DNA of 60,460 nucleotides from Myxococcales bacterium (GTDB lineage Bacteria; Myxococcota_A; UBA9042): positions 1 to 60,460 of the forward strand of contig SHZF01000021.1 of the NCBI GenBank assembly GCA_009692425.1, given 5' to 3'. This document shows, one piece after another, positions 41,267-55,613 of the stretch. Positions within the stretch are counted from its first letter, which is position 1; each line of letters opens with the position of its first letter. The position numbers and the translations under genes are program-made. The notes beneath the pieces are model-generated. The model had not been told where the DNA came from. It was given only the letters and a program-made list of their open reading frames with translations, and ran no database searches.

Positions 41267-42247
41267 TCAGCCTTGGCGCAGCCACCGCGCGGCCGACCGC
41301 GCAAAATACGACAGGATCACGTCGGCGCCAGCCCGCCGGATCGCCAGCAGCGACTCCAACACGCTGCGCCGCTCGTCGAGCCACCCGTTGGCGGCGGCCG
41401 CCTTCAGCATCGCGTATTCGCCGGACACCTGGTACGCCGCCACCGGCAAGGTCGTCGCCGCCCGCACCGCCGCAATCACGTCGAGGTACGCGCCGGCCGG
41501 CTTGACCATCACGATGTCGGCTCCTTCGGCCTCGTCGAGCGCAACTTCGCGCAGGGCTTCGCGCCGGTTGGCGGGGTCCATCTGGTAGGTCTTCTTGTCG
41601 CCGAAGCGCGGTGCGGAATCGAGCGCGTCGCGAAAAGGCCCATAGAACGCCGACGCATACTTCGCGGTGTAGGCGAGGATCGAGACTTCCGTGAAGCCAG
41701 CGCCGTCGAGCGCGCGGCGCACGGCACCCACGCGGCCGTCCATCATGTCAGACGGTGCGACGATGTCGGCTCCGGCGCGGGCCTGGCAGAGCGCCTGGCG
41801 GCACAGGGCAGCGACCGTTTCGTCGTTGACGATGCGGCCGTCGCGCACGATGCCGTCGTGACCGTCGCAACTGTAGGGGTCGAGCGCCACGTCGGTGACG
41901 ACGGCCAAATCGGGAAAGCGCTGCTTGAGAGCGCGGATCGCACGCGGCACCAGGCCGTCCTCGTTCCAGGCCTCGGCGCCGTCGGACGTCTTGAGTTCCT
42001 CGGCCACGGCGGGAAACACCACGATCGCTCGCACGCCATCGTGCAATGCGCCCTCGGCCTCGCGCAGCAGACCGTCCAGATCGAGGCGCTCGCAGCCCGG
42101 CATCGATGGGATCGGCACACAGCCACGCCCGGAATGCAGGAACACGGGCAGGATGAAGCGATCCGGCGCCAGTTCGGCCTCGCGAACAAAAGCGCGCACC
42201 AGCGCAGACTTGCGGTTGCGGCGCGGACGAATCGGCAGGTCAAGCAT
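41267..42247 (-). CDS. hemB: delta-aminolevulinic acid dehydratase (porphobilinogen synthase)
   Basis: Condenses two 5-aminolevulinate molecules to porphobilinogen in heme synthesis. The start MLDLPIRPRRNRKS at 42247 has GAGG upstream and gives 326 aa, the family length. The two active-site lysines lie in YTAKYASAFYGPFRDA and MVKPAGAYLD. The metal loop reads DVALDPYSCDGHDGI: mostly the Asp-rich magnesium form but with one Cys. It is 90 bp downstream of the Cys-rich lipoprotein gene on the same strand. Confidence 0.96.
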   Translation of the reverse strand: MLDLPIRPRRNRKSALVRAFVREAELAPDRFILPVFLHSGRGCVPIPSMPGCERLDLDGLLREAEGALHDGVRAIVVFPAVAEELKTSDGAEAWNEDGLVPRAIRALKQRFPDLAVVTDVALDPYSCDGHDGIVRDGRIVNDETVAALCRQALCQARAGADIVAPSDMMDGRVGAVRRALDGAGFTEVSILAYTAKYASAFYGPFRDALDSAPRFGDKKTYQMDPANRREALREVALDEAEGADIVMVKPAGAYLDVIAAVRAATTLPVAAYQVSGEYAMLKAAAANGWLDERRSVLESLLAIRRAGADVILSYFARSAARWLRQG

Positions 42248-42337: not shown

Positions 42338-45151
42338 TCAGAACGACAGGCAGAACTGGAAAATAAAACACTTCAAGCAGATGCCGTTGCACCCCGGGCA
42401 TTGGTACTGTGGCGGCGCACTGCTGGCCACGCACTTCCCGTTCGACGCGCACTTGCCCGGCACGTTGACGTCCGAGCACAGGTCCGCGCTGTACTTCGCC
42501 TGGCAGGTGATGCCCGACTTCGACAAGCACACGCCGGCCGAGCACGTCCCTTCCGGACACACGCCCGACGCCGCCACGCACGCGCTGCCGGAGACCGCCT
42601 TGAACGCGCACTGGCCCGTCTTGTCGCACGCGTCCTCGGTACACGCATTGCCATCGTTGCATTGCTTGAAGGCCGCGCCTTCGCACTTGCCGTTGACGCA
42701 CTTGTCGTTCGATGTGCAGGGGTTGCTGTCGTTGCATACCTTGTCGTTGAACTGCGACTTGCACAGGCCCGCCTGGCACAAGCCGTCGGCGCACGGGTCG
42801 TTGTTGCCGGCGTCGCAGGGCTGGCCCGACGCCTTGGCGGGGTGCGAGCACGCGCCGCTGGCGCACACGTCGGTCGTGCAGATGTTGCCGTCGTCGGTGC
42901 ACGCGGCCGTGTTGTTCGTGTGTGTGCAGCCCGCCGTGCAGCCATCCGAGGTGCACGGGTTGCCGTCGTCGCAGTTCTTCGAGTCCGTGCCCTTGCATAC
43001 GCCAGACAGACACTTGTCGGCCGTCGTGCACGGGCTGCCGTCGTCGCAGAACACGTCGGAGTCCTTGATGTAGGTGCAGCCCTGGCCCTTGAGGCAGGCG
43101 TCGGTCGTGCACGGGTTGCCATCGTTGCAGGTCGGCTTGTTGGCCCCCTTGCACAGGCCCGAGGCCGAGTCGCAGGTGTCGGTCAGCGTGCACGGATCGT
43201 TGTCGTCGCACGGTGAGTTCGAGTTGACATGCGCGCACTTGCCGCCCTGGCACGCGTCCTTCGTGCACGTCTTGCCGTCGTCGTCGCACGGCACGTTCGA
43301 CTTGGCCGGGTGCGAGCAGCCCTTGGCGGCGCACACGTCATTCGTGCACAGCAGGCCATCGTCTTCGCACGGCTTGCCGTCCGACGCCTGGTGCACGCAC
43401 TTGCCGGCCGCGCACACGTCGTCGGTGCACGGGTTGCCGTCGGTCAGGCACAGCGCGCCGTTCTGGGCCGGCGGGTGGCTGCACGCGCCCTTCAGGCACA
43501 CGTCTTGGGTGCAGGTGTCGGCATCTTCGAGGCACGCCTTCTCCGAGCCGAGCAACTGGTTCGAGCACTTGCCCTGATCGCAGAAGTCGGCCGTGCACGG
43601 ATTGCCGTCGTCGGCGCATGGGACCGTGAACGCCACCGGCGGGTGCACGCACTTGCCGCCACCGCACACGTCTTGCGTGCACTTGTTGCCGTCGTCGAGA
43701 CATGGCGTCGTGTCCTTGATCGCCGGGTGGTTGCACTTGCCGGCCTGGCACACGTCCTGCGAGCACGGGTCGCCGTCGTCGGGGCACGGGCCGCCTTCGC
43801 CGGTCGGCGCGTGGCTGCACTTGCCGTCCTTGCACAGGTCGAGCGTGCATGGGATGCCGTCGTCGGGGCAGGGGCCGTCGTTCGGCTTGTGCACGCAGCC
43901 GCCGCCGGCCTCGCAGGTGTCGGTCGTGCAGGGGTCGGAGTCGTCACACGTCAACGACGCCTTGCCTTGGCACGTGGCTTGGCCGGTGCACGCGTCGCCC
44001 GACGTGCACGTGTTCGAGTCGTCGCACGCCACACCGACCTGCGGCGTCTGTTTGCACGAGCCGTCGGTGTTGCACGAGCCCTTCGTGCACGGGTTGCCGT
44101 CGTCGCACAGGTCCTCGTCGGTCGCACCGTCGCAGTCGTCGTCCTTGCCGTTGCACGCTTCGGGCTTCGCCGGGCCGGCATCGCACAGCGGCGCACCGTC
44201 CTTGCACGCGATCAGCTTGCCTGGGCACTGGCCGAATTCGGTGGCGACCGACTTGCACGTCCCCTTGGTCGTCAAGTCGTCGACCTTGCCGTTGCAGTCG
44301 TCGTCCTTGCCGTTGCACTCCTCCTGGGCCGGCACCTGTCCGGAGCACTCCTCGAGCCCGGTCGGCGCACACAGGCGAAAGCCCGGGCACGCCCCCAACG
44401 GATTCTTGTTCACGCATTCCGTCTTGAGTTGCAGCGCGATCGCCTTCTTGCTGCACGTGCACACGCCGGACTTGGGCGCGCACTGCTGTACCTTCTTGCC
44501 GGTGGCCGCATCGATCTCGGTCGCGCACTCGAAATCCCCGGGGCACGGCAGCTTGGCGGGGCCGCAGATCGCGCCGCAGAACGAACCTGCCGGCCCGCGC
44601 GCGATGCACACGTTGTCGACTTCGCCGAACTGGCCAGAATTGCAATCCGCGTTCGTGGTGCACGGGTCGCACAGCTTGCCGAACGCGGGCACGCACAGGT
44701 AGGTCACGTCGCCGCCGCCGGAATCGAGCGGCGCGCACAAGAAGCCTTGCGGGCACGTGTCGGCGCACTTCTTCGAGCACACGTTGCCCTGCGGCGACGG
44801 CACGCACAGCCCGGTGTCGCAGTCGCCGGGCTGTTGGCACGGCGCGCCGAACTGGCCGGCACTCGGCGGCCCGCTGTCGGCGCCCGGTTGTGTGGTGTCC
44901 GTGCCCGCATCGGCCTTCTGCGGGGTGCCGGTGTCGTTGCCCGGCGTGGCGGCATCCGACCTCGCGCTGCCCAAGTCGTCTGCGGTCGCACCGGTGTCGC
45001 CGCCGAGGTTGAACAAGCCGTCGGACCCCGACGAGTCGGTGGACACCTTCGTGCCGTCCGGCGCTTCCTCCTCCGAGCACGCAGACAGCAAGCACGGCAC
45101 CAGCGCGAGCCAGGTGAACGAGGGCAGGAGCGGCAAGGCGCGGCGCGACAT
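42338..45151 (-). CDS. large Cys-rich repeat lipoprotein with MopE-like metal-binding motifs
   Basis: A 937-aa predicted surface lipoprotein. The start MSRRALPLLPS at 45151 has GAGG upstream and the signal peptide ends in a perfect lipobox, LSAC. A Ser/Thr/Asp/Gly linker rich in acidic residues follows. Two MopE-type metal-binding motifs (ECNGKDDDCNGKVDD near 276-292, ACNGKDDDCDGATDED near 331-347) come next. Residues ~350-850 hold 19 clear Cys repeats of the form C(D)DGNPCTxDxCxxGxCxH, plus one degenerate copy. Each repeat has acidic residues that could bind calcium or copper. The protein ends in FQFCLSF. It follows a MlaE permease gene by 43 bp. Function is unknown; adhesion or metal binding at the surface is inferred. 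Confidence 0.85.
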   Translation of the reverse strand: MSRRALPLLPSFTWLALVPCLLSACSEEEAPDGTKVSTDSSGSDGLFNLGGDTGATADDLGSARSDAATPGNDTGTPQKADAGTDTTQPGADSGPPSAGQFGAPCQQPGDCDTGLCVPSPQGNVCSKKCADTCPQGFLCAPLDSGGGDVTYLCVPAFGKLCDPCTTNADCNSGQFGEVDNVCIARGPAGSFCGAICGPAKLPCPGDFECATEIDAATGKKVQQCAPKSGVCTCSKKAIALQLKTECVNKNPLGACPGFRLCAPTGLEECSGQVPAQEECNGKDDDCNGKVDDLTTKGTCKSVATEFGQCPGKLIACKDGAPLCDAGPAKPEACNGKDDDCDGATDEDLCDDGNPCTKGSCNTDGSCKQTPQVGVACDDSNTCTSGDACTGQATCQGKASLTCDDSDPCTTDTCEAGGGCVHKPNDGPCPDDGIPCTLDLCKDGKCSHAPTGEGGPCPDDGDPCSQDVCQAGKCNHPAIKDTTPCLDDGNKCTQDVCGGGKCVHPPVAFTVPCADDGNPCTADFCDQGKCSNQLLGSEKACLEDADTCTQDVCLKGACSHPPAQNGALCLTDGNPCTDDVCAAGKCVHQASDGKPCEDDGLLCTNDVCAAKGCSHPAKSNVPCDDDGKTCTKDACQGGKCAHVNSNSPCDDNDPCTLTDTCDSASGLCKGANKPTCNDGNPCTTDACLKGQGCTYIKDSDVFCDDGSPCTTADKCLSGVCKGTDSKNCDDGNPCTSDGCTAGCTHTNNTAACTDDGNICTTDVCASGACSHPAKASGQPCDAGNNDPCADGLCQAGLCKSQFNDKVCNDSNPCTSNDKCVNGKCEGAAFKQCNDGNACTEDACDKTGQCAFKAVSGSACVAASGVCPEGTCSAGVCLSKSGITCQAKYSADLCSDVNVPGKCASNGKCVASSAPPQYQCPGCNGICLKCFIFQFCLSF

Positions 45152-45194
45152 GGAGAGCCTCAAAGTCAAGCGAATCATGGACCCGGACCGGGTC

Positions 45195-46043
45195 TTAGAA
45201 GATAGCAAAAATGAGCCCCGAGATCACGAAGTCAAGCAGGACGACGGCAAAGGACGCGTTGACCACCGCCCGCGTCGTGGCCCAGCCGACGCCTTCGGAG
45301 CCGCCTTGCGCTTCGAGGCCCGCCTGGCCCGCGATCAACGGGATGGCGCAGCCGTACGCGAACGCCTTGGCCAGCCCCGACACGAGGTCGCCGGTGCCGA
45401 TGAGTTGCGTGGTCACAAAGGTCAACGGATGCACCCCGAAGCCGACGAATGCGGTCAACATGCCCGTGATTTCGCCGATCAGGACTGCATAGATGGTCAG
45501 GCAGATCATCATCACGCCGGCTGCCAGGAAGCGCGGCACGACCAGATAATTCACGGGGTCGGCATTGCACATCCGCAGCGCATCGACTTGCTCAGTGACC
45601 ACCATCGAACCGATCTCAGCGGCGATGCCCGAACCGACGCGCGTGGCCACCATCATGCCGGTGATCGTCGGGGCGAACTCCTTGATCATGACCTGCAGGA
45701 ACGCCGCACCGAGCATCGAGAAATCGGGCAGGATCTTCTCCACCTGCGTCGCGACCTGGTAGACCAGGATCATGCCGAGAAAGCCCAGCGTCACGGTGAT
45801 GAAGACGATCGACTGGTTGCCCATCGCGTACATCTGCCGCGCCACGGAACCGCGTTCGCGCCGACTGCGCACGATATGTGACAAGGTGTCGCGTGCCAGC
45901 CGCACAAGGTCGATGGTGGGGCGCAGGCGCGCAGTCAGCCAGTTGCCGCGAAGGCGAGGCGGTGGCGGCGGGCCGGCGTCGATGGGCACCGGCCGCGGGG
46001 AGAAACCGCCCGAGAGCATGGCGGCGTTGCGGTGCGAGGCCAC
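45195..46043 (-). CDS. MlaE/YrbE-family ABC transporter permease
   Basis: Inner-membrane permease of the kind that moves phospholipids between the inner and outer membrane with MlaF and an MCE protein. It has 282 aa (usual ~260) with a Pro-rich N-terminal extension. Family signatures are clear: MGNQSIVFITVTLGFLGMI, EFAPTITGMMVATRVGSGIAAEIGSM, VTEQVDALRMCNADPVNYLVVPR and a hydrophobic C-terminus. The start is a GTG at 46043 without a clear Shine-Dalgarno; ATG 46019 is an alternative. It lies 11 bp downstream of the PEGA-protein gene. No MlaF ATPase or MlaD/MCE gene is nearby, so its partners are elsewhere or it works differently. Confidence 0.88.
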   Translation of the reverse strand: MASHRNAAMLSGGFSPRPVPIDAGPPPPPRLRGNWLTARLRPTIDLVRLARDTLSHIVRSRRERGSVARQMYAMGNQSIVFITVTLGFLGMILVYQVATQVEKILPDFSMLGAAFLQVMIKEFAPTITGMMVATRVGSGIAAEIGSMVVTEQVDALRMCNADPVNYLVVPRFLAAGVMMICLTIYAVLIGEITGMLTAFVGFGVHPLTFVTTQLIGTGDLVSGLAKAFAYGCAIPLIAGQAGLEAQGGSEGVGWATTRAVVNASFAVVLLDFVISGLIFAIF

Positions 46044-46054
46044 GGCGGTGGCGC

Positions 46055-47236
46055 TTACTTCGGGGCCGGTTTGGCACTGAGGCCGGCGGGCTTGCCACTG
46101 TCGCCGGTGGGCTTGCCACTGTCGCCGGTGGGCTTGCCACTGTCGCCGGTGGGCTTGCCACTGTCGCCGGTGGGCTTGGCGGCTGGCGTCGGCGCGGTTG
46201 CAGGCCCCTCAACGGTCTCGCTCAACGACTCCAGCCTCGCCTCGACCATGATCGGTTGATCCCGCACGATCTCGATGCGCCGGTGCCAGCGGTCGTGGCC
46301 TTCCTTGTGGAACCGGATCACCCACTTGCGGGCTGCAAGCTCGTACGGCTCCTCGCGGGTGCCCTTGCCCGAGATGGAGCCTTCCTTGGTCGCCTTGTCG
46401 GCGAGGCGTTTCTCCACCGGCTCATCGTCGAGGTAGGTGGTCACTCCGTCCGTTGGCGTGACGCGCACGATCAGCTTGCCGAAATACGTGATCTGCTTGG
46501 GCCGAATCACCGCTGGCGTCGGGTCGCCCTGGCGCACGCTCACGAAAAGCTCGTGATCGGTGTAGCCGACGCAACTCGCCTCGACCTTGCGTTGCCCTGT
46601 CATGGTTTCGATCTCGCCCGAGCCGATGCCCACGAAGGTGCCATCGACGCGCAGTTCGCACGTCGCGGGCTCCGACCGGATCTGCAAGGTGCCCGTCGGC
46701 AGCTTCGCCCGCAGGAAATCGAGCCGCGCATTGGCCTTGTCGAGCTTGACCTGCATGTCGGCCTTGCGGGGATTCGTGTCGGGCAAGTCTTTCACCGCTC
46801 GCTTGGCAAGGATCTGCACGGCGGCCATCGCGCGGAACTCCAGTTCGACGTTGTTGAGCGCCTCGGCGAACGCGCCCGTATTGAACGGGTAGTCGACCGT
46901 CGATGGATCCAGTTGCCACGCCGCTTCGAACAACTGCATGCCCTTCTGGTTCTGGCGCGCATTGGCGGCAGCGACGCCGGCCTGGGCCCGCTTGAGCGCC
47001 TCCTTGACGTTGCTGTCGCGCTTCTCGACGCGCTCGCGGGCTTCGCGCTGCTCGGCCGATTCCTGGACCTGCATCTCGGCTTTGCGCTTTTCCAACTCCT
47101 CGCGCTGGCGGCGCTTCTCTTCGATCTCGCTGCGATCGACCGCTGGCGGGGCCTGACCGAACGCGCTGGCGGGCACGAGTCCGGTGGCCAGGGCGAGGGC
47201 GACCAGGCGAAACGGACGAATGGGGCGGGTAATCAT
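46055..47236 (-). CDS. exported coiled-coil protein with PEGA-like domains and KPTGDSG repeats
   Basis: A 393-aa periplasmic or surface protein. It starts at 47236, 6 bp after the S41 protease stop, and has a signal peptide (LVALALATGLVPASAFG). A charged coiled coil follows (EEKRRQREELEKRKAEMQVQESAEQREARERVEKR). Residues ~205-270 fit a PEGA domain (GTLQIRSEPATCELRVDGTF, then VEASCVGYTDHE), and a second weaker one comes after it. PEGA domains occur on bacterial envelope proteins. The C-terminus carries four exact 21-bp repeats encoding KPTGDSG. It is followed 11 bp later by the MlaE permease. Confidence 0.7.
   Translation of the reverse strand: MITRPIRPFRLVALALATGLVPASAFGQAPPAVDRSEIEEKRRQREELEKRKAEMQVQESAEQREARERVEKRDSNVKEALKRAQAGVAAANARQNQKGMQLFEAAWQLDPSTVDYPFNTGAFAEALNNVELEFRAMAAVQILAKRAVKDLPDTNPRKADMQVKLDKANARLDFLRAKLPTGTLQIRSEPATCELRVDGTFVGIGSGEIETMTGQRKVEASCVGYTDHELFVSVRQGDPTPAVIRPKQITYFGKLIVRVTPTDGVTTYLDDEPVEKRLADKATKEGSISGKGTREEPYELAARKWVIRFHKEGHDRWHRRIEIVRDQPIMVEARLESLSETVEGPATAPTPAAKPTGDSGKPTGDSGKPTGDSGKPTGDSGKPAGLSAKPAPK
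46088..46171 (-). repeat. 21-bp tandem repeat, four identical units (KPTGDSG)
   Basis: Four exact 21-bp units starting at 46088, 46109, 46130 and 46151, with a partial fifth from 46172. Each encodes KPTGDSG at the C-terminus of the PEGA protein. The identity at DNA level implies recent expansion. Confidence 0.95.
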
Positions 47237-47242
47237 GAGTCC

Positions 47243-50179
47243 TCAGGGTGCGGCAGCCGGAGTGCCCGTACAGGCGACGAGCAGCGTGCGCTGCGCGACC
47301 TGACGCGGACCGGCGCGCGCTTGGATTGTAATGGTGTTGAGGCCACTGTCGAGCCGGAGCCGTGCTCGAAAGGGTACTTCAGCGCCGCCGCGGCCCGCGT
47401 GATACGATTGCTTGATGCCGCCGACGCTCGCCGTGACGAAACGGCGCGCGGCGGAGCCGATGTCGAACAGGGCCACCCCGCCGACATCGATGCTGCACGG
47501 CTCGGTGACAGGGCTGCGTGGCGCATCGACCGGCTCCCCGTGGCCGTCGAGGAACTGGATGCGCGGGGGAGCGTCCCACACGTCACCCGCCGCCTTGCGG
47601 GTCGCCTCGGCCTGCCGGCGTGCAGCCGATGTCGCGCGTTCGAGCCCCACGCGCGACCAGGCCAGGTCGATCGGCACCTTGCGCTCGATCGCGAGCACGT
47701 CGTCGGCAAGCGTCACTTCGAGGCGGATCGGCTCGGCGTCGTCCACGGCGGCGACAGCGCCCGTACCCTTGCGATCCAGGCCCCGCACGCCAAACGTTGC
47801 GACCGCGCGGCCATCCGGCGGTACGACGCCAAGGCGCACGCGTCCCTCGTCGAGGTGCAGCCGCGCGACGCCGGCCACGCGCACGCTGACGCCTGCCGCG
47901 AGAGTCGCCCCCGTGCCCCGGTTGTGGACGTCGATGCGCAGCCGCGCGGCCTCACCTGGCTGCACCACGCCGTCGCCGGGGCGTGTGGGCGCCGCGTCGT
48001 CGAGCGTCACCTTGAACGCAAACTCCGGCAGGGGCTTGCCAAGAATCGTCACGCTCGCCACCGCACGCCGCCCGAGCAGTCGCCCGTCGCTCGCCGCCTC
48101 CACGCGCAATGGCACCCGCAAGGAGCCGTGCCGCGAGGGAATCCGCACGCGAAGGTGGACCGTCCGGGACTGCCCGGGGTCCAGTTGCCCGACGAGTTGC
48201 TCGTGGCCGTCGAGGGCCGGATCGTCGCAGGTCGTCAGCACGTGAAGCCGGTGCAGCGGGACTTTGCCGGTGTGCGTCAGCGTGACCGAGAAGCGCAGCA
48301 CGCCGCCGGCATCGATCTGCAACCCGTCGGCGCCGGCCGGAATCTCGACGCGCACCGTCGGCTCGGCCGGCTCGCTCGCCGCGCGCCAGTCGATGCCCTG
48401 CCGGCGCAGGTGTGCGACCAGCATCAGATCGTCCAGGCGCTGCAGTTCGGCCAGGTCGGGCGCCGCCGCCTTGAGGAATTGCGCGGCATTGGCATCGCCG
48501 GCACGGCGCAACAGCAACGCCGCACGTTGGCGTGGCTCGCGCTCCATCACATCGAGGGGCGTCTCCTGCGCCACCTCCGGTGCGACGCCCGACCAGGCAT
48601 CGGGCAGCAACACCTTCCACTGCGTGCGCGGCAATTCCGCGGGACCCGTGGCGTCGGGCTGGACCAGCGCCCGGGTCGCACGCCGGCCGAAGCGTGACGC
48701 GCCGAACAAGCTGACCTGTTCGCGCGTCGCCGACACGAATTGTACGGCCACGTCCGGAGTGATGCCGACGCCGTGGATGCTGACGTCGCCCGGCACCAAG
48801 TACTTTGCCACCGTGAGCTTGAGGGCGCCTCCGCCCACCTCGAACGGCACTTGCACGGAGCCCTTGCCGAAACTCTGCTCGCCGACGACGATCGCGCGGC
48901 CCGAGTATTTCAACGCCCCTGCCACCACCTCCGACGCGCTCGCCGAGTGACCGGACAGCAGGACCGCGAGAGGCAGCCGCGTCCATGGGCCGCGCCCCGA
49001 AACCGTACGGACGTCGCGCTGGCGTCGGCCGCCGGTCACCGTGATGACCGCAGGGCCGCGTGCCACGAAAAGGTCCACGATTCTAACGGCTTCGTCGAGA
49101 AGACCGCCAGGATTGTCGCGCAGATCCAGCACCAAGCCCCCTTGGGCGCCCGCCCGGTCTAGGTCGGTGAGCGCCTGGCGCAACTCGTCGGCCGTCCCGC
49201 GCTGGAAGCCCTTGACCTTGGCGTAGCCGACGCCGGTGTCGAGCACCTTCCACTCGACGCTCTGCAGGTGGATGACGGCGCGCACCACGGCGAGTTCGCG
49301 GGGTTGCTTGAGGCCCGCCCGCCGCACGAGCAGGAGCGCCCGGCTGCCGACCTGGCCCCGCAGGCGGTCGACCGCGTCGTCGACGCCGAGGTTCAGCGTG
49401 TCCTCGCCGTCGATCTGGAGGATTTGATCGCCTGCCAGCAACCCGGCCTTCTCGGCAGGCGAGCCCGGCAGAACGGTCTGCACGGTCAGCAGGCCATCTT
49501 GGGTCAGGATCACGATGCCGAGACCGCCGAAGTGGCCGCCGGTTGAAGCCTGCATGTCGCGCCAGGCATCGGGATCGAGCATCCGGCTCCACGGGTCGAG
49601 CGGCTTGAGCAGGCCGTTGACCGCCGTGTACTCCAAGCCCGCCGCGTCCGCGTCCGCCGGCATGTGGTCGCTGACGAACCGCAGCGTGTCGAGCAGCGCC
49701 CAGCCAAGGCGAAAGGTATCCGTGGCATTGCCCAACTGTACGCAATGCGCCGCGTCGGCGATGCGCACGCGCAATTCGACGGGTTGGCCCGAACTGCGAC
49801 GCACGGGCGCATCGACCAGCATCTCTGGGATTTCGTGGGCAATGGCCTGCAGCGCAGACTCGAACATCTGCGGCGGCTCGATGCGCGCCGGATCGACGTA
49901 GCGGGTGCGGACCAAGTGGAGCGCCTGGCCCACGATTCGACCGGAGCGCAAGGCGGCGCGAGCCATCGTCGCGGTCGTTTCGGTGTGGGCGAGGCGCGGT
50001 GCCGGGCCTTGGAGCGACGGCAACGGTACGGGTGGCGCGGCGCGCGGGCGGACCGACCAAGATGCCAGCCACACACTCGCGCTAGCCAGGCCCAGCACGA
50101 GGGCGCCGGCGGCCACCCAGCGGCGCGGCGGCGAAGCCGGCAGGGCACGCGCAAACCGTTGTGCCAGCGCAGGCGACAA
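47243..50179 (-). CDS. S41-family (CtpA-like) serine protease with PDZ domain and long C-terminal beta region
   Basis: A 978-aa membrane-anchored C-terminal processing protease. I place the start at TTG 50179 (product MSPALAQRFARALPASPP) because GGGAG lies 4 nt upstream and the predicted N-terminus is basic and followed by a membrane segment (VAAGALVLGLASASVWLASW). The PDZ domain (GGLGIVILTQDG, VLPGSPAEKAGLLAGDQIL) spans about residues 190-290. The catalytic Ser is in GHSASASEV and the Lys in SFGKGSVQ, as expected for S41. Beyond residue ~560 come about 400 extra residues of beta-rich repeats (DGVVQPGEAARLRIDVHNRG), unusual for CtpA. It heads the PEGA-MlaE-lipoprotein gene set. The frame runs open to 53341 but that part is antisense shadow. 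Confidence 0.85.
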   Translation of the reverse strand: MSPALAQRFARALPASPPRRWVAAGALVLGLASASVWLASWSVRPRAAPPVPLPSLQGPAPRLAHTETTATMARAALRSGRIVGQALHLVRTRYVDPARIEPPQMFESALQAIAHEIPEMLVDAPVRRSSGQPVELRVRIADAAHCVQLGNATDTFRLGWALLDTLRFVSDHMPADADAAGLEYTAVNGLLKPLDPWSRMLDPDAWRDMQASTGGHFGGLGIVILTQDGLLTVQTVLPGSPAEKAGLLAGDQILQIDGEDTLNLGVDDAVDRLRGQVGSRALLLVRRAGLKQPRELAVVRAVIHLQSVEWKVLDTGVGYAKVKGFQRGTADELRQALTDLDRAGAQGGLVLDLRDNPGGLLDEAVRIVDLFVARGPAVITVTGGRRQRDVRTVSGRGPWTRLPLAVLLSGHSASASEVVAGALKYSGRAIVVGEQSFGKGSVQVPFEVGGGALKLTVAKYLVPGDVSIHGVGITPDVAVQFVSATREQVSLFGASRFGRRATRALVQPDATGPAELPRTQWKVLLPDAWSGVAPEVAQETPLDVMEREPRQRAALLLRRAGDANAAQFLKAAAPDLAELQRLDDLMLVAHLRRQGIDWRAASEPAEPTVRVEIPAGADGLQIDAGGVLRFSVTLTHTGKVPLHRLHVLTTCDDPALDGHEQLVGQLDPGQSRTVHLRVRIPSRHGSLRVPLRVEAASDGRLLGRRAVASVTILGKPLPEFAFKVTLDDAAPTRPGDGVVQPGEAARLRIDVHNRGTGATLAAGVSVRVAGVARLHLDEGRVRLGVVPPDGRAVATFGVRGLDRKGTGAVAAVDDAEPIRLEVTLADDVLAIERKVPIDLAWSRVGLERATSAARRQAEATRKAAGDVWDAPPRIQFLDGHGEPVDAPRSPVTEPCSIDVGGVALFDIGSAARRFVTASVGGIKQSYHAGRGGAEVPFRARLRLDSGLNTITIQARAGPRQVAQRTLLVACTGTPAAAP

Positions 50180-50308
50180 GGGACTCCCGGTCGAGCGCGC
50201 CGGAACTGGCCGGTGCGGACGGTCGCACAGTATAGTCGCGACTCCTCCGCGTCGCCTACCGCGGGGTCGGGCGTGGCCGTGGCACAATCGGGTGGCAATC
50301 GGGATGCG

Positions 50309-51967
50309 ATGTGCGCGCGGTGGGCACTCGTCGCCGCGGGCGTGGTGAGCGCTGTCCTCCTCGGGCGGCCCGCCGTGGCTCGCCCACCGCATGGCACCGC
50401 TCCGGCGGATGCGGCAAGCCCCATCGTCTCCAACTTGCTCGCGTGCCTGGCCCGGGAAGACGTCGCCTGTGCCGAGGCGCACCTTGCTGCGCTGCGCGCG
50501 CAGTTGCCGGCTTCGACCACAGTCGAATGGTTCCAAGGCTCCGTTGATTTTCTCGCCGGACGCTGGGGCCCCGCGCGGGTCGCCCTGCAACGTGTAGCCG
50601 GTTCGCCACTCGTGCCCGACGGCCTGCGGGATCGCGCCCAGGCCCTGCTGAAACTGGTCGATGCCAATGACGCCGTGCTGGCCGACACGAAGCCTCACCT
50701 GCTGGCGGCAGGTCGGGTGCAGGTGTGGCTGCGTCCCGGCGCCGACGAAGTGCTGCTGCCTTACCTCGAACGGGTGCTGGAGCGTGCCCTGCCGGCCCTC
50801 GAGCTTGCCTTCGGGCCGGTCGCGCGCAAGGCGCCGATCGTGATGCCGATCGTCGCGCGCGCCGCCGACCTCGGCCGCATCACAGGGTTGACGGTCGAGC
50901 AGATTCGCACGTCGGGTACGATCGCCGTGTGCAAGCACGACCGCGTGATGCTGACGAGTCCACAGGACCTCGTGTTCGGCTACCCGTGGGCCGACACGGT
51001 GACGCACGAACTGGTGCACTGGTTCGTGATCAAGCATGGCGGCGCGGGCGTGCCGGTCTGGCTGCACGAGGGCCTGGCGCGGGCGTTTCAGGGCGTCTGG
51101 CGTGCCGCGGACCCGGCCGACCTCGACATCGACGAGCGGCGCACGTTGGCAACTGCCCGCGCTCGCGGCCGCTTCATCGCGCTCGACAAGATGAGCCCGT
51201 CGATGGCCCTGCTGCCGAGCCAGGAGGAGACGCAGTTGGCTTTCGCCGAAGTGCACTCCGCCGCCGTGTGGCTGCTGCAGCACGCGCCCCTTGGCTCGGC
51301 CGATCCCTTGGCGGCGCGCGCAGGACAACTGGTCAACTTGTTCGGCAGCGGTCTCGGGGAAAGCGCCGTCATCGCGGCCATGACCGGGTCGAGCGCCGCC
51401 GTGTTTCGTTCTCGATGGCGCCGCGACCTGCTGCGGCTCGACCTGCGCCTGCCGCCCGCGGCAGAGGGTCCAGCGGCGCCCAATGCGGCGCTGGTGTTTC
51501 GCGGCGTCGGCGCGCACGGCTTGACGCGCTTGACCGACGAAGCCCGGCGCTTTGCCGAACTCGGAGACCGCCTCGCCGTTGCCGACCGGCCGGCCGCCGC
51601 CGCCATCGAGTATCGCAAGGCACTTGCCGCTGGCGCCGGTTCCGGCGGGGCACTGGTGTCGGCCCGCCTCGTGCGCGCCCTGCTCGACATTGGACGCAAT
51701 GAGGAGGCAGACCAGTGGCTGTCGCCCGCACTGCAGCAGCACGCCGACCACGCGCCCCTGCACGTGCTGGCTGCGCGCGCCGCGTTGGCCCAGGGCCGTC
51801 CGCAAGAGGCGTTGCAGTCTGTCGAGCGCGCTGCGTGGATCAATCCGTTCGACCCGCAGGTGCACGAATTGGCGGCCCAGGCGTGGAGCACCCTGGGCAA
51901 CGAAAAGCAGGCCGCCGCGGCCCGGGCCAATGCCCAGCGCGTGACGGGCGGCGCTGCGAATCCGTAG
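50309..51967 (+). CDS. exported HExxH metallopeptidase-like protein with C-terminal TPRs
   Basis: A 552-aa predicted periplasmic zinc peptidase of the Peptidase_MA (gluzincin-like) type. The ATG at 50309 gives a short signal peptide (MCARWALVAAGVVSAVLLGRPAVA). The motif HELVHWF is followed about 20 residues later by WLHEGLARAF, supplying the third zinc ligand Glu. The C-terminal third has TPR-like helices (AIEYRKALAAGAGSGG, ADQWLSPALQQHADHAPLHVLAARAALAQGRPQEALQSVERA). The start is only moderately supported, with a weak Shine-Dalgarno. It is divergent from the S41 protease gene; a TATACT box on the minus strand at 50229-50234 may serve that gene. tolQ follows after 90 bp. Confidence 0.75.
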   Translation: MCARWALVAAGVVSAVLLGRPAVARPPHGTAPADAASPIVSNLLACLAREDVACAEAHLAALRAQLPASTTVEWFQGSVDFLAGRWGPARVALQRVAGSPLVPDGLRDRAQALLKLVDANDAVLADTKPHLLAAGRVQVWLRPGADEVLLPYLERVLERALPALELAFGPVARKAPIVMPIVARAADLGRITGLTVEQIRTSGTIAVCKHDRVMLTSPQDLVFGYPWADTVTHELVHWFVIKHGGAGVPVWLHEGLARAFQGVWRAADPADLDIDERRTLATARARGRFIALDKMSPSMALLPSQEETQLAFAEVHSAAVWLLQHAPLGSADPLAARAGQLVNLFGSGLGESAVIAAMTGSSAAVFRSRWRRDLLRLDLRLPPAAEGPAAPNAALVFRGVGAHGLTRLTDEARRFAELGDRLAVADRPAAAAIEYRKALAAGAGSGGALVSARLVRALLDIGRNEEADQWLSPALQQHADHAPLHVLAARAALAQGRPQEALQSVERAAWINPFDPQVHELAAQAWSTLGNEKQAAAARANAQRVTGGAANP

Positions 51968-52020
51968 CGATCGCGAACACGTCGGCTGCGACCGCTGTGC
52001 CGACCGGACCGACCGCCTCG

Positions 52021-52049
52021 TTGTCTCGGATCGCGGCCTCGCGTACTCT
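52021..52049 (+). promoter_or_regulatory. predicted promoter of the tolQ operon
   Basis: TTGTCT (52021-52026) and TACTCT (52044-52049) are 17 bp apart. The -10 box ends only 8 bp before the tolQ ATG at 52058, and no Shine-Dalgarno precedes it. If used, the transcript would be leaderless or nearly so. Confidence 0.45.
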
Positions 52050-52057
52050 GCCGCGCC

Positions 52058-53029
52058 ATGACCGTGCCGTTGCTCCCGCTGCTCCCGTTCGCCCAGATCG
52101 AGATGGACCCACTGTCTGCGGCGGTGCAGTCCCGTGGCATGGTGCTCGTCGTCCTGGTTGCGCTCGTGTTGATGTCCGTCATGTCGTGGGTCGTGATCGG
52201 CAGTCGGCTTGCGTACCTGCGCAAGCTGCGTCGCGACATCGACAGTTTTCGGTTTGAATTCCAACGATTTCCTGACCTGCGGGTCGCTGCGGAGACGATC
52301 GGCAAGAGGTACGTCGGCCTGCCGCACATGCGCCTGGTGCACGCCGTCCTCAAGGAAATGCACCAACTCGAGCAGACAGGACCGCTGACCGAGGTCGACA
52401 TCGGCGGCCTGGAGCGGGCGCTGAACCGTGCTGCGGAGCCCCTCGTCGAGGAGATGGAGCAGGGGCTCGGCTTGCTGGCGACGACGGCGTCGGCCGCGCC
52501 GTTCATCGGGCTGTTCGGCACGGTGTGGGGCATCATGGGCGCATTTGGCGGCCTGGCCGATTCGGGCACGGTCCTCCAATCCGTCGCGCCCCACATTGCC
52601 CAGGCGCTCGTCGCGACGGCCGTCGGGTTGCTCGCCGCCATTCCCGCGTCGATGGCCTACAATGGCTTGGGACGCGTCGTGCGGCGCCTCGTGATCGATC
52701 TCGACGGCTTCGGACTCGAACTGCTCAACCTCGTGCGGCGGCGGCACCTGCGTCGAACCGCGCGGACGGCGGCGCCAGACGAGTTGGCTGCAGCACCGGC
52801 GCACGCGGAGCAGGGGCCCCCACCGCGGTCCCGGCAGCCGTCCGGTGGCCACGAGCCGCCGCCCGTACCGCACGACGAAGACGGGTTGCCCGGTGCCGAC
52901 ATCCCCGCGCCCGCAGCGGAGGTGCTGTCTGCACTGACCGAACTGCTGCCTTTGCACACCGAGACGGCCGAAGCCGAGCCTCGTCGTACCCCGCAGGACG
53001 CGAACGCCGCGACCTCCGACTCCAGGTAG
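52058..53029 (+). CDS. tolQ: TolQ/ExbB-family proton channel protein
   Basis: Inner-membrane subunit of a proton-driven motor that, with TolR/ExbD, energises a TolA/TonB protein. It has 323 aa (E. coli TolQ 230). A first membrane span (VLVVLVALVLMSVMSWVVIG) is followed by a cytoplasmic loop. Two further spans hold the family signature (TTASAAPFIGLFGTVWGIMGAF, then ALVATAVGLLAAIPASMAYN). The ~95 extra C-terminal residues are Pro/Ala/Glu-rich and probably disordered. tolR starts 7 bp later. Whether the system is Tol-like or Ton-like is unclear because no tolB or pal is nearby. Confidence 0.92.
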   Translation: MTVPLLPLLPFAQIEMDPLSAAVQSRGMVLVVLVALVLMSVMSWVVIGSRLAYLRKLRRDIDSFRFEFQRFPDLRVAAETIGKRYVGLPHMRLVHAVLKEMHQLEQTGPLTEVDIGGLERALNRAAEPLVEEMEQGLGLLATTASAAPFIGLFGTVWGIMGAFGGLADSGTVLQSVAPHIAQALVATAVGLLAAIPASMAYNGLGRVVRRLVIDLDGFGLELLNLVRRRHLRRTARTAAPDELAAAPAHAEQGPPPRSRQPSGGHEPPPVPHDEDGLPGADIPAPAAEVLSALTELLPLHTETAEAEPRRTPQDANAATSDSR

Positions 53030-53036
53030 GCGCCTG

Positions 53037-53699
53037 ATGGCATTCAGCTCCGGCGGTGGCGGCAGAGGGCGTGGGCGCATCGCGCAGTCGACGCTCGCTG
53101 ACATCAATGTGACGCCGCTCGTCGATGTCATGCTGGTGCTGCTCGTGATCTTCATGGTCGCGTCCGCCGTCGAGACTGCCCGGATTTCGCGCGAGGCCGA
53201 GACCTTGCGCCAGGTCGTCACCGAAGAAGTCGCCTCGGCCAGCCAGACGGACGAGAACCAGGTGCCGGTCGACCTGCCACGGGTCAAGGCCGACGCGGTG
53301 CCGAAGTCCGGAGGCAAGGAAAAGACGCCGGTACTCAGCATGGATGGCGAGCGACGCCTCTACCTCGACCGCGACGAACTCGTCGACTGCCGCAAGCGTG
53401 CCGGTCTGGTCGCTTGTCTCGATGCGTTCGAAGAGGCGTTGCAGAAACACCCGCGCGGGCAAGGATTGCGTCAGGTACACCTGCGCGCGGACCGGCGCCT
53501 CGACTACGGCATGGTGCTCGCCCTGATGGCGCGCATGCGGCGCGTCGGCATCGAGCACTTCGGCCTCGTGACGGAAGACCCCGAAGTCGCGGCGCCCAAG
53601 GCCTCTGCACCCAACACGTCTGCGCCCAAGGCCGCCGCTGTCCCCGGTGCGTCGGATTCCGGTGTCCCCGCGCCGGCCCCCGCGCCGCCCGGACCGTGA
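53037..53699 (+). CDS. tolR: TolR/ExbD-family protein
   Basis: Single-span inner-membrane partner of TolQ/ExbB, 220 aa. The membrane span carries the essential Asp (INVTPLVDVMLVLLVIFMV). The periplasmic domain follows, including the VHLRADRRLDYGMVLALMARMRRVGI region typical of ExbD/TolR. The C-terminal ~35 residues are an Ala/Pro tail (KASAPNTSAPKAAA) not found in E. coli TolR. It lies 7 bp after tolQ and 8 bp before the tolA/tonB-like gene, so this is a tight operon. Confidence 0.92.
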   Translation: MAFSSGGGGRGRGRIAQSTLADINVTPLVDVMLVLLVIFMVASAVETARISREAETLRQVVTEEVASASQTDENQVPVDLPRVKADAVPKSGGKEKTPVLSMDGERRLYLDRDELVDCRKRAGLVACLDAFEEALQKHPRGQGLRQVHLRADRRLDYGMVLALMARMRRVGIEHFGLVTEDPEVAAPKASAPNTSAPKAAAVPGASDSGVPAPAPAPPGP

Positions 53700-53707
53700 G
53701 GCAGGCG

Positions 53708-54592
53708 ATGGACGCGATGTCCGAAGTGGAATCGACCCTGGGCGCGCGCCTCGACCTCGGAGTCGGCGCAGGCGTTGCGCTGCTCGTTCACTTCGCCCTG
53801 GGTCTTGCCATCGTGCTGTCGCCGCCCGGCAAGCGCGCCGCAGCGGCCGAGCACGCCGCCGAACCGGACGGTTGTGCGTCGGTCGTCAGCCCGGCTTGTG
53901 TCGGCGCGGCCCCCAACCGGGTTGCCCTGCCGGCGGCGTCGGACGAGACCGCGAGCGCGATCGGGGAGCGCCGGTGCCCAGAGCCGGTGCGCCGTGGTCA
54001 ACGCCGCGAACATGAGCCGCCGCCCGCGGTCGCCGTGGATCTGCTGCGCGCCGAGGTCGTGGCAAACCTCGGCTCCGAGACCGGCAAGCGCCTGGAAACC
54101 GGAGCGCGGCCCGGCGCGGGCGGAACGCACGTAGCGCGACCAGAAGACAAACTCGCTGTCGCGGTCGAGTCCAAGACCCGGCTGGGCGAAATCCTCGCCG
54201 GCGGCACGGGCGGCGTAGAGCAACAGCGCAAGCTTGGCGAAATCCTCGGCACGGCGAGCGGCAAGGCGGGCGGTGAAGGCACGGTCAACGTCACGGGCTC
54301 GACGTACATGCGCGCCGTCGGCATGGCGGTGCGGTCCAAGCTCGTGCTGCCGCCGTCGATTCCCCTGTGGGAACGGGCAGGTCTGCAAGCCAAGGTCCGC
54401 GTGCGCCGCATGACGGCATCGGGCGGGGTACTCGAGTGGTCGTGGGACAAACGCAGCGGCAACGACGACTTCGACGAAACCGTGTCGGGTGTGATGAACC
54501 GCTACAAGGCCGGACTGCTGCAACTGCCCGCACCTCCGCCACACATTCTCGACCAGATCAACAGCCAGGGTGCGGCGATCATCGTGCGGTAG
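53708..54592 (+). CDS. TonB/TolA-like energy transducer
   Basis: A 294-aa protein with one N-terminal membrane anchor (GVALLVHFALGLAIVLSPP) and a long periplasmic part. The last ~95 residues (from YMRAVGMAVRSKLVLPPSIPLW to the C-terminus) resemble a TonB_2/TolA C-terminal domain. In the middle two near-identical LGEIL(A)G motifs occur. The ATG at 53708 is chosen because the earlier frame overlaps tolR. It should transmit TolQR motor force to an outer-membrane or periplasmic partner. The partner is unknown. Confidence 0.8.
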   Translation: MDAMSEVESTLGARLDLGVGAGVALLVHFALGLAIVLSPPGKRAAAAEHAAEPDGCASVVSPACVGAAPNRVALPAASDETASAIGERRCPEPVRRGQRREHEPPPAVAVDLLRAEVVANLGSETGKRLETGARPGAGGTHVARPEDKLAVAVESKTRLGEILAGGTGGVEQQRKLGEILGTASGKAGGEGTVNVTGSTYMRAVGMAVRSKLVLPPSIPLWERAGLQAKVRVRRMTASGGVLEWSWDKRSGNDDFDETVSGVMNRYKAGLLQLPAPPPHILDQINSQGAAIIVR

Positions 54593-54728
54593 CCGGGGCG
54601 TTGCCCGCCGCACGACATGCGGCGAACTGGACATCGAATCGCCGCGTGGTACCTCCGGCCCCACAGCCTGTCGGCCCCTTCGACAGGCCGCCGGGCCCGC
54701 CGCTTGGGCCCTCTCGCCGGGGTGCTCC

Positions 54729-55613
54729 ATGTCCGTCGTCTACGATCTTGGTTTTCGGCTGCGCTCAGCGCTGGAGTCGAGCCCGCTCGGTGCCGCATTC
54801 CAGCCGTTTGCCGGTGCGGTGTCGGGCCGCGCGCGCGTGATCGCCGTCGCCGCCCAAAAGGGAGGCGTCGGCAAGACCACGACCGCCGTACACCTCGCGG
54901 CCGGACTCGCCCAGCGCCATGGAATGCGCGTGCTGCTGATCGATTTGGACGCCCAAGGTCACGTCGCGTCCAGCTTGCGCGCTCACATTCGCATGAGTGC
55001 CGACGCTTCGGTGACGCAGGTGCTGCTGGGTCAGGTGCCCGACCTGCTCGCCGCCGTGGTGCCGACGACGCTCGACGGTCTGCATGTGACCACCGCAGAC
55101 AAGGGGCTTGCCGGTGCCGAAGCCCAACTGGCCGCTCGCATCGGCCGGGAGACGCTGTTGGCCCGCGCGCTGCGACCGGTGCGCGCCGTATATGACGCCA
55201 TCGTGCTCGACTGCCCGCCCAACCTGGGCCTGCTGACACTGAACGCGCTGTGCGCGGCCGACGAGGTGCTCGTTCCGTGTGACCTCTCGGTCCTTGCCCT
55301 CGAAGGCGTCGATGACCTCGTGCGCACGCTGGACCACCTCGCCAGCGGGCTGGGCCACGCGCCCCACCTGCTCGGACTCGTCCACACGCGCGTGGACCGC
55401 CGCAACCCGCGACAGAACGCCGCGATCCGGCGCGCTGTACAGCAACGCTACGCGGGCCTGCCACTGCAGAGCGAGATCGCCACGAACACCGCGGTGCCCA
55501 CGGCACAACTGCACGGACAGGTGGTGTACGCGCACGCTCCCGATTCGCCAGGTGCGCGCGACTACAGCGCCCTCTCAGACGAAGTGCATAGGCGCGTGTT
55601 CGCGCGAAGGTAG
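54729..55613 (+). CDS. ParA-family ATPase (orphan)
   Basis: A 294-aa Walker-type ATPase of the ParA/Soj/MinD superfamily. The deviant Walker A AAQKGGVGKTTTAVH, the switch I region IDLDAQGH and the Walker B LDCPPNLGLLTLNAL are all intact. The start MSVVYDLGFRLRS at 54729 is in a region without a clear Shine-Dalgarno, so it could begin elsewhere. No ParB gene follows. The gene lies 136 bp after the tolA-like gene and converges on cdnL. Orphan ParAs often position protein clusters rather than segregate DNA, but the cargo here is unknown. Confidence 0.9.
   Translation: MSVVYDLGFRLRSALESSPLGAAFQPFAGAVSGRARVIAVAAQKGGVGKTTTAVHLAAGLAQRHGMRVLLIDLDAQGHVASSLRAHIRMSADASVTQVLLGQVPDLLAAVVPTTLDGLHVTTADKGLAGAEAQLAARIGRETLLARALRPVRAVYDAIVLDCPPNLGLLTLNALCAADEVLVPCDLSVLALEGVDDLVRTLDHLASGLGHAPHLLGLVHTRVDRRNPRQNAAIRRAVQQRYAGLPLQSEIATNTAVPTAQLHGQVVYAHAPDSPGARDYSALSDEVHRRVFARR

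Follow-up and report, generated by a model that had tools for sequence, protein, structure and literature searches.

An MlaE-type permease gene in a protease-PEGA-lipoprotein cluster as the probable relocated part of a dispersed MCE transporter of myxobacteria

The stretch of DNA analysed here (60,460 nt, hereafter the window; contig C28 of a 4.94 Mb genome that is 96% complete) carries an MlaE/YrbE-type permease gene, MlaE-A, between the genes of a protease and its PEGA-domain partner on one side and that of a Cys-rich lipoprotein on the other, which raises the question of whether such a permease belongs to an envelope machine of a new kind or to a transporter whose other subunits are encoded elsewhere. 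We favour the second answer (with a probability of roughly 0.8): the cluster would be a mixed operon, and MlaE-A the relocated subunit of a dispersed two-permease, two-ATPase MCE transporter. The cluster and its downstream neighbour comprise:

47243-50179, minus strand: S41 C-terminal processing protease (978 aa; N-terminal membrane anchor, PDZ domain, long C-terminal extension)
46055-47236, minus strand: secreted PEGA-domain protein (393 aa; (KPTGDSG)n tail), conserved partner of the S41 gene
45195-46043, minus strand: MlaE-A, MlaE/YrbE-type permease (282 aa from GTG; alternative ATG at 46019)
42338-45151, minus strand: Cys-rich lipoprotein (937 aa, 122 Cys, lipobox LLSAC; CxDDGNPCTxDxC-type repeats)
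41267-42247, minus strand: hemB, delta-aminolevulinic acid dehydratase, an ordinary neighbour that is not linked to the cluster in relatives

The coordinates and Pfam domains of the four minus-strand genes, separated by 6 bp (S41/PEGA), 11 bp (PEGA/MlaE-A) and 43 bp (MlaE-A/lipoprotein), confirmed what the initial annotation had described. The protease matched S41 (PF03572, 144 bits), PDZ (54) and TIGR00225 (271 vs a cut-off of 218.6), retains both the Ser and the Lys of the catalytic dyad (within GHSASASE...SFGKGSVQ), and lies near the MXAN_5808 family TIGR03900 without passing its cut-off (606.4 vs 660.95); a search covering part of the literature for MXAN_5808 and for PEGA with Myxococcota found nothing relevant. 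The PEGA domain scored 23.8 in Pfam (cut-off 20.8), and the C-terminus of this protein is encoded by a short in-frame tandem repeat (window about 46080-46200) that yields the KPTGDSG units. MlaE-A lies above the gathering cut-off of PF02405 (193.4 bits vs 22.5) and under the NCBIfam cut-offs of TIGR00056 (166.4 vs 212.2) and NF033619 (138.4 vs 315), and is, judged by its sequence, a divergent member of the MlaE permease family; its predicted structure (pLDDT 82.6) fits Mce1 YrbE1A at 1.6-1.7 Å, and MlaE too. Divergently from the S41 gene, the plus strand (50252-55613) carries genes for a TPR protein and for TolQ-like, TolR/ExbD-like, TonB-like and ParA proteins; G004 and G008 retain them beside S41, as does G011 for some of them.

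Within the sample of the window's family (22 genomes, 14 of them with MlaE-A), the order S41-PEGA-MlaE-A was found in all 14 carriers, which belong to seven genera and differ in their flanking genes. As this linkage recurs in so many genomes and genera despite the differing flanks, it exceeds what chance would produce, and the proposal that these genes form a conserved cluster distinct from any known mla operon was borne out, the contrary possibility (no conserved linkage in relatives) proving false. In 10 of the 14 genomes, one of them truncated here by a contig end, the Cys-rich lipoprotein comes fourth; the four genomes of genus g6 have a BamD-like lipoprotein instead. PEGA-MlaE-A spacing is tight in several genomes (-4 to 27 bp), and in some others the called distances are as large as 210 bp upstream and 289 bp downstream of MlaE-A, the S41 starts and gaps in relatives being approximate since the gene caller merges some frames (S41 runs on upstream). 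We consider that the S41-PEGA-MlaE-lipoprotein cluster is probably co-transcribed within the family. In other families of the class, PEGA adjoins S41 in 11 of the 14 fetched loci and MlaE accompanies them in none. On the favoured reading, an old S41 protease-PEGA-lipoprotein envelope module has taken in MlaE-A. The named close relatives are MAGs from lakes and other sources, mostly labelled Myxococcales; a further sequence titled Klebsiella pneumoniae (CAMDBH010000072.1; permease identity 84%) carries the myxobacterial cluster and is apparently a mislabelled MAG.

Since the linkage has lasted across at least seven genera with changing flanks, some functional or regulatory tie may bind MlaE-A to the protease module. 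A tentative addition to the favoured reading, compatible with it, is that co-expression of MlaE-A with S41, PEGA and lipoprotein coordinates envelope lipid flow with protease or lipoprotein output, as the unbroken conservation in all carriers and the tight PEGA-MlaE-A spacing would suggest; against this, one insertion followed by inheritance in a single family is enough to explain the linkage, the wider spacings sit poorly with close coupling, and the lipoprotein has been exchanged in g6.

The window's genome contains four genes for MlaE and three for MCE (MlaD). Contig C37 holds an ATPase gene (ABC1) followed by an MCE gene (355 aa product), and contig C105 the series TPR lipoprotein-ABC2-MlaE-B, both pieces lying well inside contigs of 57-94 kb and away from their ends. 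The description of MlaE-A as a permease without ATPase and MCE partners therefore stands at the locus (throughout the family neither gene is adjacent and the partners lie on other contigs) and fails for the genome. The possibility that the partners are missing through an assembly gap was rejected, since all pieces are deep in long contigs and relatives are split likewise. Downstream of ABC1-MCE, the family carries a row of small genes with one gene of about 696 aa (L105, L106, L109, L110, L112), which by their sizes recall a type III/flagellar export cluster.

The origin of this arrangement is visible in families elsewhere in the class, where the MlaE-A ortholog and a second permease are immediate neighbours flanked by two ATPases, the MCE gene mostly coming next (order ABC2, MlaE-B, MlaE-A, ABC1, MCE). 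In named Polyangia such as Polyangium and Sorangium, MlaE-B adjoins MlaE-A with ABC1 and MCE nearby (ABC1 sometimes on the opposite strand). Roughly half of the named loci have ABC2 next to these genes, but the Polyangium loci and the majority of the Sorangium loci do not. The window's family has the ancestral operon split into parts that are no longer linked: ABC1-MCE (side by side in 17 of the 22 genomes), ABC2-MlaE-B (MlaE-B was found in 14 of the 22, and ABC2 adjoins it in most fetched loci, G003 and G009 excepted) and MlaE-A. In maximum-likelihood trees, branches with 99-100% support set off MlaE-A, MlaE-B, ABC1 and ABC2 as separate groups, with the scattered family copies falling among the operon-encoded orthologs, and the window's MlaE-A retains the residues that are invariant among operon-encoded permease copies, as well as the EQVDAL-type loop. 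A recent foreign origin of MlaE-A was likewise rejected, as it groups with orthologs of the class.

The transporter parts are inherited and lost together, separately from the protease module: genus g9 (G008, G011, G015 and G018) and G012 lack all four of the transporter genes covered by this search, MlaE-A, MlaE-B, ABC1 and MCE, and S41-PEGA-lipoprotein is contiguous in G008 (100% complete), G011 (97%), G015 (92%) and G012 (58%). Three genomes are discordant in having ABC1-MCE without MlaE-A: G002 and G020 (L087, L088) have contigs that stop within S41 or PEGA, immediately ahead of the expected place of MlaE-A, and G019 is 81% complete. The presence table of MlaE-A against ABC1 (14, 0, 3, 5) gave a Fisher p of 0.002, uncorrected for shared ancestry, and the co-loss amounts to few independent events (one genus and one genome of 58% completeness).

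The two ATPases differ in which motifs they have lost. Aligned to references, ABC1 is devoid of the LSGG signature in all 35 class loci and all 56 named loci (the position typically reads IGDG, LGDG or VGPS), and keeps the Walker-B DE with its catalytic Glu in 91 of 91. ABC2 keeps LSGG in 31 of 33 class loci (the others have LAGG and ISGG) and in 33/33 named ones, and carries DD for the Walker-B DE in every one of the 33 class loci and in only 8 of 33 named loci outside the family, so that its Glu-to-Asp exchange does not extend to all loci beyond the class. Heterodimeric ABC transporters such as TAP and TM287/288, which are exporters with fused TMD-NBD chains, have one degenerate site, the consensus site being formed by the Walker motifs of one subunit and the signature of the other. 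The complementary decay of ABC1 and ABC2, which could jointly build one canonical ATP site, argues for a heterodimeric ATPase pair of a comparable kind in an MCE-type transporter that, unlike TAP and TM287/288, would consist of separate subunits; here the heterodimer is read from sequence motifs.

We propose that MlaE-A and MlaE-B would sit in the membrane above an asymmetric ABC1/ABC2 pair and be served by one long MCE protein, that ATP would be hydrolysed at a single canonical site (ABC1 Walker A/B with ABC2 LSGG) while the other site is degenerate, and that the assembly would move lipids between the inner and the outer membrane, its substrate and direction being suppositions. It is likely that this represents a widespread myxobacterial MCE lipid transporter in which permease and ATPase alike are obligate asymmetric heterodimers, and whose genes, in one family, occupy at least three unlinked loci (one of them in the protease-PEGA-lipoprotein operon). 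The main competing arrangement, two separate homodimeric transporters (ABC1 with MlaE-A, ABC2 with MlaE-B), would accord with the fact that each ATPase gene adjoins one permease in the ancestral operon, and is improbable given that both sites of an ABC1 homodimer would lack a signature, that the defects of the two ATPases are complementary, that each operon has one MCE gene, and that g9 is without both permeases, ABC1 and MCE at once. The suggestion of the initial annotation that the permease was repurposed, acting with S41, PEGA and lipoprotein (and no ATPase or MCE) in lipid supply or lipoprotein export, can point to the four-gene linkage conserved within the family and is scarcely credible, since the partners are encoded in the genome, group in trees with their operon-encoded orthologs and were lost alongside MlaE-A, the S41-PEGA-lipoprotein genes persist without the permease, the lipoprotein is swapped in g6, and MlaE-A keeps the residues invariant in operon-encoded copies.

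The dispersed transporter shares its permease fold and family with MlaFEDB of E. coli and Acinetobacter (PDB 6xbd, 7d06), and the window's genome likewise encodes MCE protein, MlaF-like ATPases and MlaC homologs (two). It departs from MlaFEDB, in which one permease and one ATPase gene from a single operon each provide a homodimer, in that separate loci encode its two permeases and its two complementary ATPases, and a search for MlaA gave no match in this 96% complete genome. Two distinct permeases, side by side, also typify mycobacterial Mce1 (YrbE1A/YrbE1B-MceG; PDB 8fed), which employs the single ATPase MceG and six MCE proteins (PMC10517005), in contrast to the two ATPases with decayed complementary motifs and the one MCE gene per operon described here. 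The minimal MlaEFD system of Veillonella resembles the present one in its long MCE protein and in that a search of the window's genome found no MlaA, and differs in having a single permease and ATPase in one operon (PMC10665443) and in the MlaC homologs present in the window's genome. Within a limited literature search, we found no earlier description of an asymmetric dual-permease/dual-ATPase MCE transporter, or of an MCE system with a degenerate NBD.

A seeming lack of partners does not by itself make an MlaE a repurposed protein, and distribution surveys that accept MlaF only in the vicinity of other mla genes (as in PMC10665443) could overlook or wrongly count split systems. The lopsided ATPase pair is more unusual and of greater interest than the four-gene cluster: the paired decay of its motifs provides a test case from nature, simple in genetic terms, for the question whether a single ATP site is enough to drive an MCE transporter, and orthologs are available in cultured Sorangium and Polyangium.

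Further MCE genes are also scattered in the window's genome. A permease on C64 (L001) and a canonical ATPase-MCE pair on C94 (L012:7705-10148) lie apart, genes similar to this permease and this ATPase adjoin each other in G028, G035 and G038, and the C64 permease and C94 pair probably constitute a second system of this split kind. Branches are long in the permease tree that contains the copies from C64 and C13, and any placement of these two would be tentative. Regarding the proposal to look for mlaF and mlaD elsewhere, a complete mla operon with its own permease exists only in part: contig C13 (about 53.6-56.4 kb in G000; L010:8624-11387) encodes MlaE-D and an MCE protein together with an ATPase-like protein of 237 aa. 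The last of these is without Walker A, signature, Walker B and H-loop and matches no Pfam family, aligns by profile to ABC1/ABC2 (99.5% probability), and looks, by its sequence, like a dead but conserved pseudo-ATPase in an MCE operon; its counterparts occur in 12 of the 22 family genomes (L203-L214), with MlaE-D and/or MCE-D adjoining.
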